This document shows positions 4,477 to 10,885 of a stretch of 41,074 bases of DNA, piece by piece. The first letter of the stretch is position 1; every line of letters begins with the position of its first letter. Made by a program: the position numbers and the translations under genes. Location of the stretch: contig PLJS01000216.1 in assembly GCA_003140315.1 (NCBI GenBank), forward strand, positions 1 to 41,074, written 5' to 3'. This stretch comes from Hyphomicrobiales bacterium (GTDB lineage Bacteria; Pseudomonadota; Alphaproteobacteria; Rhizobiales; Xanthobacteraceae). Under the pieces are notes generated by a model. That model saw only the letters and a list, made by a program, of their open reading frames with translations, had not been told where the DNA came from and did not search any database.

Positions 4477-4495
4477 TTTTTGTGATATTTTGTGG
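4477..4495 (+). promoter_or_regulatory. shared 17-bp motif upstream of the FAD/GcvT gene (operator and/or promoter core)
   Basis: Bases 4479-4495 read TTTGTGATATTTTGTGG, identical to 10869-10885 before phnW. TTTGTG occurs twice, 10 bases apart, a helical-turn spacing seen in some DeoR-type operators. GATATT (4484-4489) preceded by TG could also be an extended -10 element. In that case transcription would begin near the ATG at 4498. An inverted CAAAATA (4462-4468) faces TATTTTG (4486-4492). Confidence 0.6.
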
Positions 4496-4533
4496 GCATG
4501 TTCCGCGGCTCTTTGGCCCGGTTCCGCACGCCC

Positions 4534-6984
4534 ATGCCGTCTGACCAGCTTCCCGATAGCGCCCGCGCCGTCATCATCGGCGGCGGCGTGATTGGCTGTT
4601 CGGTCGCTTATCACCTGACGAAGCACGGCTGGCGCGACGTGATCCTGCTGGAGCAGGGCCGCCTGACGTGCGGCACGACCTGGCACGCGGCCGGGCTCGT
4701 TGGGCAACTCCGCGCGCACCAGAACATGACGCGGCTCGTCCAGTATTCGGCTTCGCTCTATCAGGCGCTCGAAGCCGAGACCGGGCAGGCGACCGGCTGG
4801 AAGCAGTGCGGCTCCGTGCTGGTCGCGCGCACGCCGGAGCGCCTCACGCTGTTCCGCCGCGTGCTCGCGGCCGCGAAGGCTCAGGGGGTGGCCTGCGAAT
4901 TCCTGTCGCCGCGCGAGGCGGCCGAGAAATACCCGCTGATGCGCACCGACGATCTGCTTGGTGCGCTGTGGTTGCCCGACGACGCCAAGGTCAATCCGGC
5001 CGACGTGACGCAGGCGCTGGCTAGGGGCGCGCGCATGGGTGGCGCGCGCATCGTCGAACAGACGCGCGTCACGGCGATCCATCAACGGAACCGCGCAGCG
5101 ACGGGCGTCGCAACCACGCGCGGCGACATCCGCGCCGAAGCGGTCATCAACTGCGCCGGCCAATGGGCCAAGCAGGTCGGGCGCCTATGCGGCGTTGCCG
5201 TGCCGCTGCATTCGGCCGAGCACATGTATGTCGTGACCGGCCGCATCGAGGGCGTGCACCCGGACCTGCCGGTGCTGCGCGATCCCGACGGCTACATCTA
5301 CGTGAAGGAGGAGGTCGGCGGGCTTCTCGTCGGCGGCTTCGAGCCTGTCGCCAAGCCCTGGGGCATGGACGGCATCCCGGAGAATTTCGAGTTCGGCATG
5401 CTTCCCGACGACTGGGATCAGTTCCAGATCCTGATGGAGAACGCGCTCATCCGCCTGCCGGCGCTTGAGACCGCCGAGATCAAGACCTTCATGAACGGCC
5501 CGGAGAGCTTCACGCCCGACAACAACTTCATCATGGGCGAGGCGCCGGAACTGAAGAACTTCTTCGTCGCCGCCGGCTTCAACTCCATCGGCATCGCGTC
5601 GGGCGGCGGGGCAGGGCGTGCCCTTGCCGAATGGATCGTCGCGGGCGAGCCTTCGCTCGATCTCTGGCCGGTCGACATCCGTCGCTTCGCGCGCTTCCAC
5701 GATGACGACGTATTTCTGAAAGACCGCGTCGGCGAGGTGCTCGGCCTGCACTATCAGATGCCGTGGCCGAACCGCGAGTTGCTGTCGTCGCGGCCGCTGC
5801 GCAAGTCGCCGCTCTATGATCGGCTCGCCGCGCAGAACGCATTGTTCGGCTCCAAGATGGGGTTCGAACGGCCGAACTTCTTCGCGCCGACGAAGGACGA
5901 AGCGCGCATCGATTATGGCTGGGGGCGGCAGAACTGGTCTCCCCACGTCGCCGCCGAGCACAAGGCGACGCGCGAAGCCGTGACGATTTCCGATCTCACT
6001 TCGTTCGCGAAATTCCTCGTCGAAGGGCGCGACGCGGAGGCCGCTTTGCAGCGCCTCTGCGCCAACGACGTCGCGGTCCCGGTCGGCACGACGGTCTATA
6101 CCGGGATGCTGAACGCGCGCGGCACCTATGAGAGCGACCTCACCGTGGCGCGCCTTGCCGCCGAGCGCTTCCTGCTCATGACCGGCACCGCGCAGGCGAC
6201 GCGCGATGCCGACTGGATCAGGCGCAACCTGCCGCAAGGCGCGCATGTCTCGCTGACCGACGTGACCTCCGGCTATGCGGTCCTCGCCGTGATGGGGCCG
6301 CGCGCGCGCGACCTGCTCGCGCGCCTCACCACGGCGCCGCTCGACCACGCTGCGTTCGCGTTCGGTGCGATCCGCGAGATCGCGGTCACCGGCGTGATGC
6401 TTTGGGCCTCGCGCCGCACATACGTCGGCGAGCTCGGCTTCGAGCTCTATGTGCCGGTCGGGCAAGCATGCGCTGTCTATGACGCCCTGATGGAGGCGGG
6501 CGCGGCTTTCGGCGCGCGCAACGCCGGCTATTACGCGATCGAGTCGCTGCGCCTGGAGAAGGGCTATCGCGCCTGGGGTCGCGAGCTGACGCCGGACCAT
6601 AACCCCTACGAGGCGGGTCTCGGCTTCGCCGTCCATCTCGCCAACGGCGATTTCATCGGCCGCGACGCATTGATCGCCGTCAAGGCGGTGCCGCCGAAGC
6701 GCCGGCTCCTGAGCTTCGTTGCGCCCGCGTCCGACACGCCGATCGCGCACGGCGGCGAACTGATCCTGCGTGACGGCGAGGTCGCTGGCGAGATCACGTC
6801 GGCGGCCTATGGCCACACCGTTGGCGGCATCGTGGCGCTCGGCTATGTGGCGACCGGCGGCGCGCCGGTCGACGATGCCTTTCTTGCGTCGCGTTTCGAG
6901 ATCGACATCGCGGGCGAGCGCGTCCCCGTGCGCGCGAGCCGCAAGCCGCCGTACGATCCGGCGGGGGAGAGGCTCCGGGGATAA
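4534..6984 (+). CDS. FAD-dependent N-methyl amine dehydrogenase with C-terminal GcvT domain (dimethylglycine/sarcosine dehydrogenase family)
   Basis: An 816-residue two-domain enzyme. The N-terminal DAO-type half begins with the Rossmann motif VIIGGGVIGCSVAYHL and contains CGTTWHAAGLVGQLR. His51 there aligns with the histidine that carries covalent FAD in dimethylglycine and sarcosine dehydrogenases. From about residue 430 the protein is GcvT-like, ending in the aminomethyltransferase C-terminal barrel (GGEL, GEITSAAYG, GYV). Such enzymes oxidise an N-methyl amine and can pass the one-carbon unit to tetrahydrofolate. The start at MPSDQLPDSA matches the family; ATG 4498 or GTG 4492 are possible, but 4492 lies inside the shared motif. 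The stop overlaps the EamA start (TAATG). The shared motif links it to phnW, so an N-methylated aminophosphonate substrate is possible but unproven. Confidence 0.87.
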   Translation: MPSDQLPDSARAVIIGGGVIGCSVAYHLTKHGWRDVILLEQGRLTCGTTWHAAGLVGQLRAHQNMTRLVQYSASLYQALEAETGQATGWKQCGSVLVARTPERLTLFRRVLAAAKAQGVACEFLSPREAAEKYPLMRTDDLLGALWLPDDAKVNPADVTQALARGARMGGARIVEQTRVTAIHQRNRAATGVATTRGDIRAEAVINCAGQWAKQVGRLCGVAVPLHSAEHMYVVTGRIEGVHPDLPVLRDPDGYIYVKEEVGGLLVGGFEPVAKPWGMDGIPENFEFGMLPDDWDQFQILMENALIRLPALETAEIKTFMNGPESFTPDNNFIMGEAPELKNFFVAAGFNSIGIASGGGAGRALAEWIVAGEPSLDLWPVDIRRFARFHDDDVFLKDRVGEVLGLHYQMPWPNRELLSSRPLRKSPLYDRLAAQNALFGSKMGFERPNFFAPTKDEARIDYGWGRQNWSPHVAAEHKATREAVTISDLTSFAKFLVEGRDAEAALQRLCANDVAVPVGTTVYTGMLNARGTYESDLTVARLAAERFLLMTGTAQATRDADWIRRNLPQGAHVSLTDVTSGYAVLAVMGPRARDLLARLTTAPLDHAAFAFGAIREIAVTGVMLWASRRTYVGELGFELYVPVGQACAVYDALMEAGAAFGARNAGYYAIESLRLEKGYRAWGRELTPDHNPYEAGLGFAVHLANGDFIGRDALIAVKAVPPKRRLLSFVAPASDTPIAHGGELILRDGEVAGEITSAAYGHTVGGIVALGYVATGGAPVDDAFLASRFEIDIAGERVPVRASRKPPYDPAGERLRG

Positions 6985-9855: not shown

Positions 9856-10767
9856 TTAGAACGTCCTATGCCCGTTCACGTGCAGCAGCACGCCGTAGAG
9901 CGAGTTGGTGGCGCAGATGTAGAGATAGTTGCGCTTGGCTCCGCCGAACACGACGTTCGAGCAGATCTCCGGGATCTTGATCTTACCGATCAGCGTGCCG
10001 TCGGTGTCGATGCAGTGCACGCCATCATCGGTCGCGGCCCAGAGCCGGCCGTCCGTATCGAAGCGCATGCCGTCGAAGCGCCCGGCCGTGCAGTCGGCGA
10101 ATTCTTTCCCGCCCGAGAGCATGCCGTCGTCATCGACATCGAACACGCGGATATGCTTCGGCTGGCCCTTCACGCGCCCGCCGGCCGAATCGACGATGTA
10201 GAGCTTCTTTTCGTCGGGCGAAAACGCGAGCCCGTTCGGGCGGATGAAATCGTCGGCGACGACGCTGATGTCGCCGGTGTGGCCGTCCACGCGAAACACG
10301 AAGTTGCCGATCTCGGGCTCGGCCTTGTGGCCCTCGTAGTCGGAGAAAATCCCGTAGGGCGGATCGGTGAACCAGATCGAGCCGTCGGACTTCACCACCA
10401 CGTCGTTCGGGCTGTTGAGTTTCTTGCCCTGGTAGTTGTCGGCGATCACCGTGATGCGGCCGTCGTGTTCCGTTCGAGAAACACGCCGCCCGCCGTGCTC
10501 GCAGGAGACGAGCCGGCCCTGACGGTCGACCGTGTGGCCGTTGGCATAGCCGCAGGGCGTGCGGAACACGCTGACCGAACCGTCGGTCTCGTCGTAGCGC
10601 ATGATGCGGTCGTTCGGGATGTCGGAGAACAACGTGAAACGCCCGGCCGGGAAATAGGCCGGCCCCTCGCTCCAGCGCGCGCCGGTCCACAGCCGATCCA
10701 CGTTGGAGGTGCGGTTGACGCAACTGCGGAAGCGCTCGTCGAAAACCTCGTAGTCGCTGGCAGACAT
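9856..10767 (-). CDS. SMP-30/gluconolactonase/LRE family protein
   Basis: A 303-residue six-bladed beta-propeller hydrolase. Family landmarks include LWTGARWSEGPAYF (metal-binding Glu), NGHTVDRQGRLVSCEHGGRRV, LNSPNDVVVKSDGSIWFTDPPYGI (Asn), RPNGLAFSPDEKKLYIVDSAGG (Asn) and RFDGMRFDTDGRLWAA (Asp). The start codon has CCGGAG upstream. Members hydrolyse sugar lactones or organophosphate-like esters using a divalent metal. It is divergent from phnW and shares a 143-base promoter region with it, so it may be controlled with the phosphonate genes. No role for a lactonase in the known PhnW-PhnY-PhnA route exists, so its contribution is open. Confidence 0.9.
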   Translation of the reverse strand: MSASDYEVFDERFRSCVNRTSNVDRLWTGARWSEGPAYFPAGRFTLFSDIPNDRIMRYDETDGSVSVFRTPCGYANGHTVDRQGRLVSCEHGGRRVSRTEHDGRITVIADNYQGKKLNSPNDVVVKSDGSIWFTDPPYGIFSDYEGHKAEPEIGNFVFRVDGHTGDISVVADDFIRPNGLAFSPDEKKLYIVDSAGGRVKGQPKHIRVFDVDDDGMLSGGKEFADCTAGRFDGMRFDTDGRLWAATDDGVHCIDTDGTLIGKIKIPEICSNVVFGGAKRNYLYICATNSLYGVLLHVNGHRTF

Positions 10768-10847
10768 TTCGAATTCTCCGGAAAAGACCGCGAACCCTGA
10801 GAATAGCCGCTTTTCGCCGCAGCGAACCGGCTTCCCGCGATCCGGAT

Positions 10848-10885
10848 TCCGTGATATATTTGCCCGGATTTGTGATATTTTGTGG
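10848..10885 (+). promoter_or_regulatory. double motif upstream of phnW (shared operator/promoter)
   Basis: Bases 10869-10885 (TTTGTGATATTTTGTGG) are identical to 4479-4495. A degenerate copy, GTGATATATTTG (10851-10862), precedes it by 21 bases, two helical turns. GATATT at 10874-10879 could be an extended -10, giving a leader of about 24 bases to the phnW ATG. The site lies in the divergent lactonase-phnW gap. Confidence 0.6.

Follow-up and report, generated by a model that had tools for sequence, protein, structure and literature searches.

The 41,074-nucleotide window analysed here (contig PLJS01000216.1 of assembly GCA_003140315.1, from a Hyphomicrobiales bacterium) contains a phnWAY-type cluster for the catabolism of 2-aminoethylphosphonate (AEP), in which two identical 17-bp sites precede two transcription units. 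One site lies between a gene for a DeoR-family regulator and a gene for an FAD/GcvT fusion dehydrogenase, and the other lies upstream of phnW, the gene for AEP:pyruvate transaminase. Both sites are probably operators of the neighbouring DeoR protein, as judged from sequence comparison. Our best reading is that this protein would be a repressor of aminophosphonate catabolism, serving phnW where a LysR-type regulator is missing. The original prediction, made from the window alone, had proposed that DeoR controls both units; in favour of this are a motif derived outside the window's family that ranks the two sites highest, the association of the site with one DeoR clade, and the exclusion between the site and a LysR gene at phnW.

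The sequence TTTGTGATATTTTGTGG occurs exactly at 4479-4495 and 10869-10885, on the + strand in both cases and with a separation of 6390 bp, just as originally described. In the window, which has a GC content of 66%, no other match was found at up to 3 mismatches, and TTTGTGATATTTTGTGG alone has more than 7 A/T among the 43 exactly repeated 17-mers. The source genome is a draft of 6.07 Mb in 342 contigs (95% complete), and in it 4 places match at up to 3 mismatches, namely the 2 exact copies and 2 with 3 mismatches; no third place appears at up to 2 mismatches. Shuffled windows gave a mean of 0.01 matches at up to 3 mismatches, and 0 of 100 gave two, so the earlier statement that a chance repeat is very unlikely holds. 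The DeoR-family gene, identified by its HTH_DeoR and DeoRC domains, does end just before the first site, with its stop 9 bp ahead. Operator 1 ends 38 bp before the FAD/GcvT start (ATG 4534) and operator 2 ends 25 bp before the phnW start (ATG 10911), both starts being placed by alignment with relatives, and these distances fit repression. The degenerate copy reported upstream of the second site is likewise present, as GTGATATATTTG at 10851-10862, 21 bp upstream of the matching bases in operator 2.

Both sites are conserved in close relatives. Among 100 family genomes, source included, 6 have a DeoR match (E<=1e-40) and 7 a PhnW match (E<=1e-60). Two genomes of the same genus (G012 and G056) and one of another genus of the family (G036) possess DeoR and PhnW and have a site at both promoters; the motif is thus present, not absent, upstream of these orthologues. 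The non-coding flanks of the conserved sites have largely diverged at the phnW and FAD/GcvT promoters. Amid this largely diverged DNA the phnW promoters of the four genomes have TTGMCCGRATTTGTGRTATTWTGTG in common, and a block TTGMCCGRATTTGTG is also common to the phnW promoters of 4 family genomes. Operator 2 is conserved in all three relatives. The half-sites of operator 1 show 2 mismatches in G012, 1 in G056 and 0 in G036, and the weaker FAD/GcvT sites of G012 and G056 have their mismatches in the second half-site. The exact 17-mer is too strict a search key beyond the source genome, since at up to 1 mismatch it is found in 3 of 100 family genomes, source included. A match in G028 (L032) was rejected as a real site; no homologue of the window proteins was found in the 20 kb examined, and it looks like chance.

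Relatives of the regulator were collected by a search across the order, with at most 6 candidates scored per genome, and by a non-exhaustive scan of named genomes with nine DeoR sequences that covered the best 80 of 382 relatives. In a tree of 91 DeoR proteins, the window DeoR falls in a 63-row clade (support 100/99) whose members come from Hyphomicrobiales, Acidiphilium and Burkholderiaceae. The regulator is therefore not special to the source genome, and the proposed regulon was found in Mesorhizobium, Sinorhizobium, Methylobacterium and Paraburkholderia, among others. Phosphonate-linked loci, which have phnW, phnA, phnY, phn_DUF6 or a >55% identical FAD/GcvT gene within the stretch examined, account for 56 of the 63. 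Within the clade, L039, L042, L043, L044 and L089 form a DeoR subclade from another family, and L042 lies beside a phosphoglucose isomerase gene and a NUDIX gene.

A motif was derived de novo by expectation-maximization (EM) from 20 non-redundant of 32 eligible deoR-to-FAD/GcvT or deoR-to-phn_DUF6 regions, with the window's family excluded. The motif obtained outside the family, ATGTGATATTTTGTGGTTTT, has the same core, TGTGATATTTTGTGG, as the window sites, and its log-likelihood was 205.7, versus 59.3, 57.0 and 65.6 in three shuffles that kept base composition only. When the window was scored with the corresponding position weight matrix (PWM), operator 2 (28.6 bits, 10870-10889) and operator 1 (20.9 bits, 4480-4499) came out as the top two; an overlapping frame of operator 1 reached 17.5 bits and the next separate place 5.9 bits. 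Four loci outside the training set (L020, L022, L023 and L024), whose genus is shared with one training row, scored 31.4 to 34.7 bits.

The site accompanies the clade and its phosphonate genes. At a threshold of at least 10 bits (this and the 15-bit threshold below are the analysts' choice), 54 of 63 clade loci (a count that includes the training loci) have a site beside deoR, versus 6 of 28 outgroup loci, where it always lies upstream of deoR; co-occurrence of the motif with this DeoR orthologue was a check proposed with the original prediction. Within the clade it is found at 53 of 56 phosphonate-linked loci versus 1 of 7 unlinked ones, and the three linked exceptions (L074, L081, L082) have a site of at least 19 bits before FAD/GcvT. 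Across the 63 clade loci (1.25 Mb, partly training data), 87 of 91 sites of at least 15 bits lie within 350 bp upstream of proposed targets: FAD/GcvT (40, a count that is partly circular because training regions are included), deoR (23), both of these (10), phnW (11, of which 3 are shared with an SMP-30-like gene and 1 with a Na/Pi transporter gene), phn_DUF6 (2) and deoR/pbfA (1). Of the four remaining sites, three are from Aminobacter and one is from L090. In 14 whole genomes TGTGRYWTTWTGTG has 10 exact matches, 9 of which fall in proposed target promoters. Among 56 non-redundant sites, the half-site profile peaks at 0, 10 and 20 bp, with a weak further peak at 30 bp, and both the distance to the start codon and the number of half-sites vary. 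The earlier remark that TTTGTG repeats every 10 bp fit DeoR-like binding is in line with the 10-bp direct repeats that the RhaR passages of PMC3870299 give for DeoR-family operators.

In Aminobacter, a 26-27-bit site (L073 4029-4048; also L074 and L092) precedes a gene for a GbdR-like AraC regulator; the vicinity, with genes typed in L073 only, includes a Rieske oxygenase, a GbcB-like reductase and a second FAD/GcvT. These sites suggest a wider methylated-amine regulon. In G232, whose DeoR groups with Mesorhizobium, one exact consensus site (L161 4719-4732; G232:C1:3520719) lies outside the phosphonate cluster, ~850 bp before a Na/Pi transporter-like gene. The outgroup DeoR proteins of L107, L120, L121 and L131 are 36-39% identical to the window protein, with TCTGTGGCATTTTGTG or TTCGTGGCATTTTGTG upstream of deoR, around position 9.9 kb of these loci, and an FAD/GcvT of 48-50% identity. 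The divergent neighbours in L107 encode a betaine/choline-type ATP-binding cassette (ABC) transporter, and a similar ABC ATPase match is found there in L120, L121 and L131.

At phnW, the DeoR site and a divergent LysR gene exclude each other. In a survey of 250 bp upstream of phnW at 77 loci (sites of at least 10 bits, LysR sought with a single query protein, one locus, L064, set aside as incomplete), a site was present in 0 of 34 loci with a divergent LysR, a number that includes two pairs with identical PhnW (L136/L086 and L137/L095), each probably one genome counted twice. Where a clade DeoR occurs and no LysR was seen, 16 of 20 loci have the site; L065 and L072 are counted here, though their loci begin ~200 bp before phnW and a LysR could lie outside. 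With DeoR plus a LysR elsewhere in the locus the figure is 2 of 14, and with neither regulator 1 of 8. In the clade, phnW is a putative target only in some members; elsewhere the site stands at FAD/GcvT, phn_DUF6 or deoR and a LysR stands beside phnW. Within the window's own family, G032 has a 76% identical PhnW with a divergent LysR, no DeoR match and no site.

The source genome belongs to the group in which no such LysR was found. The AepR-type LysR that would be expected beside phnW in a LysR-controlled phnWAY cluster was not found there in the window or in the source genome (G000). As previously stated, no LysR is visible in the window, and a tblastn search with one AepR-type query found none; with the LysR of a same-family phnW locus as query, no relative was found at E<=1e-30 in the whole genomes G000, G012, G056 and G422. 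By the same kind of search, G302, G388, G133, G238, G265 and G419 have a copy immediately adjacent to phnW, G167 and G232 have a 40% copy at ~2 kb from it, and in G036 a 35% relative lies on another contig. LysR control of phnW in the source genome was rejected, as the searches with a single LysR query at this threshold gave no candidate. Across 397 genomes of the order, PhnW is present in 10 of 14 genomes with DeoR versus 77 of 383 without (Fisher 7.5e-5, kinship ignored). On a quick PhnW tree (62 proteins, 52 labelled, SH-aLRT support only), the two kinds of control require a minimum of 4 changes, of which well supported branches force 3. Of the 18 DeoR-site rows in this tree, 16 are the site-bearing loci counted above (DeoR present, no LysR seen), and the other two, L066 and L091, carry a LysR at another place in the locus.

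Several observations weigh against control of these units by DeoR. The window deoR has no operator of its own, its upstream region scoring -2.5 bits at best. In the loci scored, all sites of at least 10 bits before phnW and FAD/GcvT share one orientation. A 10-bit site is missing at four of the 20 phnW loci that have DeoR and showed no LysR, and the single site found with neither regulator (L150) reaches 11.0 bits. Clade members without phosphonate genes in the stretch examined (L034, L039, L042-L044, L089, L101) lack sites save L043 (11.7 bits), and in G054 the FAD/GcvT site is degenerate (12.3 bits) and no phnW was found in a genome that is 81% complete. A nearly identical site also occurs in the outgroup set L107, L120, L121 and L131, where the stretch examined shows no phnW, so the motif alone is no proof of phosphonate sensing; the outgroup loci L125 and L130 also have sites, of 15.7 and 20.7 bits, and likewise no phnW in view. 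At up to 1 mismatch, TGTGRYWTTWTGTG gives 40 matches in the 14 genomes versus 29 for a reversed control, and exact matches alone are specific. Kinship among the sequences inflates the p-values, and, in a draft assembly, the absence of LysR could reflect unassembled DNA.

DeoR-family regulators typically repress their targets and are released by a small, often phosphorylated effector. The window protein has both domains of the family above gathering score (PF08220, 7.5e-17; PF00455, 1.1e-36). Its predicted model (pLDDT 90.7) matches the sensor domain of Escherichia coli DeoR (7l6l, E 8.6e-14), and the sensor fold also matches ribose-5-phosphate isomerase A; a sequence search of the PDB gave, at the thresholds applied, no entry that spans both domains. 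In a 31-row alignment, D100, T104 and T105 of the DSGTTT loop are invariant, and in ribose-5-phosphate isomerase this loop presumably holds the phosphate. Given this fold and loop, a phosphonate effector in that place is plausible: its phosphonate group could take the position that a sugar phosphate has in family members. We lean slightly towards a phosphonate as the effector, with AEP, an N-methylated AEP or phosphonoacetaldehyde as candidates. DeoR would bind TTTGTG half-sites arranged head to tail at a spacing of one helical turn, within or adjacent to the promoters of the FAD/GcvT-phn_DUF6 and phnW-phnA-phnY units, and would block transcription until the effector fills its sensor domain. 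A fuller scenario can be put forward tentatively, in which a DeoR reading phosphonate instead of sugar phosphate governs a hitherto unrecognised aminophosphonate regulon with FAD/GcvT demethylation of N-methylated AEP at its centre, and more than once took the place of the LysR-type AepR at phnW via gained TTTGTG operators, co-inducing demethylation and transamination.

One alternative differs in the effector only: DeoR would bind both sites but sense a methylated-amine or betaine-like signal, not AEP, with demethylation as the core of the regulon and phnW as a late recruit. FAD/GcvT is indeed the commonest target (40 of the 91 sites, 10 more shared with deoR), the nearest FAD/GcvT structures are dimethylglycine dehydrogenases, the outgroup DeoR of L107 with nearly the same site stands beside the betaine/choline-type transporter and another FAD/GcvT, and the 27-bit Aminobacter site precedes the GbdR-like gene near the Rieske oxygenase. 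The 56 of 63 clade members with phosphonate-linked neighbours speak against this, and we regard a methylated-amine signal as possible but doubtful. It is unlikely that another transcription factor, a co-conserved regulator encoded outside the cluster, binds the sites in place of the neighbouring DeoR. In favour of such a factor are the clade members without a site and the nearly identical site of more distant DeoR groups, but the site goes with this clade in Hyphomicrobiales, Acidiphilium and Burkholderiaceae alike, in many loci precedes deoR itself, and has the repeat architecture that parts of PMC3870299 describe for DeoR-family operators.

Binding by DeoR must also be weighed against a reading of the 17-mer as a shared core promoter element, either an extended -10 or a -35/-10 region, with no operator. 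The 17-mer is AT-rich and 25-38 bp from the start codons, a conserved TTGMCC stands just upstream in the family phnW promoters as a -35 might, and the common orientation at phnW and FAD/GcvT would be expected. Against this, both orientations occur before deoR, the number of half-sites and the distance to the gene vary, the element is absent from phnW promoters with a divergent LysR, only 2 copies exist in the genome, and no sigma-70-type match was found at either window site; a pure promoter element is improbable. The original prediction had offered as its alternative a shared extended -10 with an overlapping operator, which is less likely in view of the varying distance and number of repeats, the two orientations before deoR and the lack of a sigma-70-type match, though the single orientation before phnW and FAD/GcvT speaks for it. 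Finally, the identity of the two copies across 17 bp could be fortuitous or stem from a promoter fragment duplicated locally and recently, which can be practically dismissed, as 0 of 100 shuffles yield two copies, the flanks differ and both sites recur in three other genomes; chance as the origin of the pair was likewise rejected on the shuffles, genome-wide uniqueness and conservation in relatives.

The genes and sites concerned are listed in Table 1. PhnW, PhnA and PhnY all exceed curated equivalog cut-offs, the cluster is thus of the phnWAY type, and the profile matches agree with the identities first assigned to FAD/GcvT and phnW. The phn_DUF6 product matches TIGR03340 ('phosphonate utilization associated putative membrane protein') with 176 of 288 bits, under the curated cut-off; its start overlaps the FAD/GcvT stop by one base, and the two genes are likely on one transcript. 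By sequence, FAD/GcvT is closest among solved structures to dimethylglycine dehydrogenases (5l46, E 1.9e-151), which makes demethylation of N-methylated AEP ahead of PhnW a likely role. Between the two target units lie a Na/Pi transporter gene and an SMP-30/gluconolactonase-like gene, both on the - strand. In the block from phnS2 to pbfA (15192-21257), the models TIGR03261, TIGR03265, TIGR03262 and NF049939 all match above cut-off. No operator of its own was found for this block, which holds none of the window's 15 best-scoring PWM places (down to 0.4 bits); its genes lie downstream of phnW and may be co-transcribed with it.

Table 1. Predicted operators and genes of the phosphonate cluster, by position in the window.
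Feature	Position	Strand	Profile match or remark
deoR-family regulator gene, 254 aa, proposed repressor	3705-4469	+	HTH_DeoR 7.5e-17, DeoRC 1.1e-36
Operator 1 (predicted), upstream of FAD/GcvT	4479-4495	+	TTTGTG half-sites 4479-4484 and 4489-4494, 10 bp apart
FAD/GcvT fusion dehydrogenase, 816 aa, target unit 1, predicted N-demethylase	4534-6984	+	DAO + FAO_M + GCV_T + GCV_T_C
phn_DUF6 / EamA membrane protein	6984-7826	+	TIGR03340 1.1e-51
Degenerate upstream half-sites of operator 2	10851-10868	+	GTGATAT and TTTGCC, ~21 and 10 bp upstream
Operator 2 (predicted), upstream of phnW	10869-10885	+	TTTGTG half-sites 10869-10874 and 10879-10884
phnW, 2-aminoethylphosphonate:pyruvate transaminase, first gene of target unit 2	10911-12056	+	TIGR02326 2.7e-140, NF010006 1.1e-156, above cut-off
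phnA, phosphonoacetate hydrolase, presumed in phnW unit	12214-13467	+	TIGR02335 4.2e-160
phnY, phosphonoacetaldehyde dehydrogenase, presumed in phnW unit	13620-15083	+	TIGR03250 1e-242
phnS2, AEP uptake	15192-16219	+	above cut-off
phnT2, AEP uptake	16437-17528	+	above cut-off
phnU2, AEP uptake	17653-19350	+	above cut-off
pbfA, (R)-HAEP lyase	19914-21257	+	above cut-off

Further features of the cluster were observed. The gaps of the window cluster hold GC-rich repeats (7830-7927, 16224-16310, 12091-12158, 13499-13610 and 19445-19912), among them the phnW-phnA, phnA-phnY and phnU2-pbfA intervals; as a speculation, they could act as attenuators or RNA stabilisers. A Pho-box-like sequence, ATGACAGATTTGTGACAA, lies at 9709-9726; the likely start of the - strand Na/Pi transporter gene, judged by eye, is ~50 bp downstream of it. 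It has 2 of 14 mismatches to the consensus, and a second 2-mismatch copy lies at 15130-15147 before phnS2; the window has 6 such places at up to 3 mismatches where 1.7 would be expected, which is no more than suggestive. In both congeners a second FAD/GcvT gene lies between phnY and the transporter genes (L028 5292-7697 in G012; L030 4469-5611 in G056, the latter only partly matched), 42-44% identical to the first, whereas the window has a phnY-phnS2 gap of just 108 bp. In G056 (L029 9279-13398), deoR contains two TGA codons in frame, and the matches to FAD/GcvT and phn_DUF6 are broken into several parts, through either sequencing errors or decay.

A DeoR regulon with a defined operator would give the AEP pathway a second, testable control logic. 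The operator ties the FAD/GcvT fusion enzyme to the pathway and thereby predicts its function, the demethylation of N-methylated AEP, and the exchange of LysR and DeoR at phnW would be a compact natural case of regulator replacement. We found no paper linking DeoR to AEP catabolism in the open-licence literature, and the word 'DeoR' has 0 occurrences in the main texts of PMC10574752, PMC10590968, PMC12366243, PMC11203657, PMC8154272, PMC4748535, PMC8316502 and PMC5343134. As far as this literature was searched, the kind of regulon is known, and the pathway, the operator and the LysR exchange are new.

Among known systems, those nearest in domain architecture are AgaR and GlpR, the best NCBIfam matches, which have the same two domains as the window DeoR; the window protein differs from them in scoring far under the equivalog cut-offs (AgaR 133.5 of 260 bits, GlpR_Halo 122.6 of 300), and no listed DeoR model reaches its cut-off. 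The FAD/GcvT enzyme can be compared with PbfC and PbfD, FAD-dependent M1AEP oxidoreductases with a DAO fold (PF01266), of which PbfD1 also oxidizes M2AEP, according to the passages of PMC10590968 on these enzymes. It is likewise a DAO-fold flavoenzyme in a phosphonate cluster, but, unlike them, it has a GcvT fusion of the dimethylglycine dehydrogenase type; 'GcvT' has 0 occurrences in the main text of that paper.

With regard to control, the consulted portions of PMC10574752, PMC8316502 and PMC9311074 describe regulation of the hydrolytic AEP pathway via LysR-type activators, PhoB and nitrogen/carbon regulators. LysR-type regulators are described for phnW clusters (phnWX, phnWAY; AepR) in PMC10574752 (section 7.3) and in parts of PMC8316502 and PMC11203657, and the relevant part of PMC8316502 states that in most Alphaproteobacteria one LysR gene alone is present, which lies upstream of aepXVW-phnWAY; the matching NCBIfam model for AepR/phn LysR-type regulators is TIGR03339. 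Like AepR, the proposed window regulon would exert local, substrate-responsive control of a phnW cluster. Unlike AepR, which is of the LysR type and often divergently transcribed, it belongs to a genome with no such LysR at E<=1e-30, and phnW promoters with a divergent LysR lack the TTTGTG site. A further parallel is found in RhaR, the DeoR-family regulators of rhamnose catabolism, whose operators are imperfect direct repeats with a period of 10-11 bp; in Chloroflexus, four tandem TCGAAA half-sites were confirmed by gel shift and rhamnulose abolished binding (PMC3870299, in its account of RhaR). The window DeoR shares with RhaR, as portrayed in that account, the DeoR family, a local catabolic regulon and 10-bp direct-repeat sites, and it differs in its half-site TTTGTG, in its aminophosphonate pathway and in its presumed phosphonate effector instead of a sugar.

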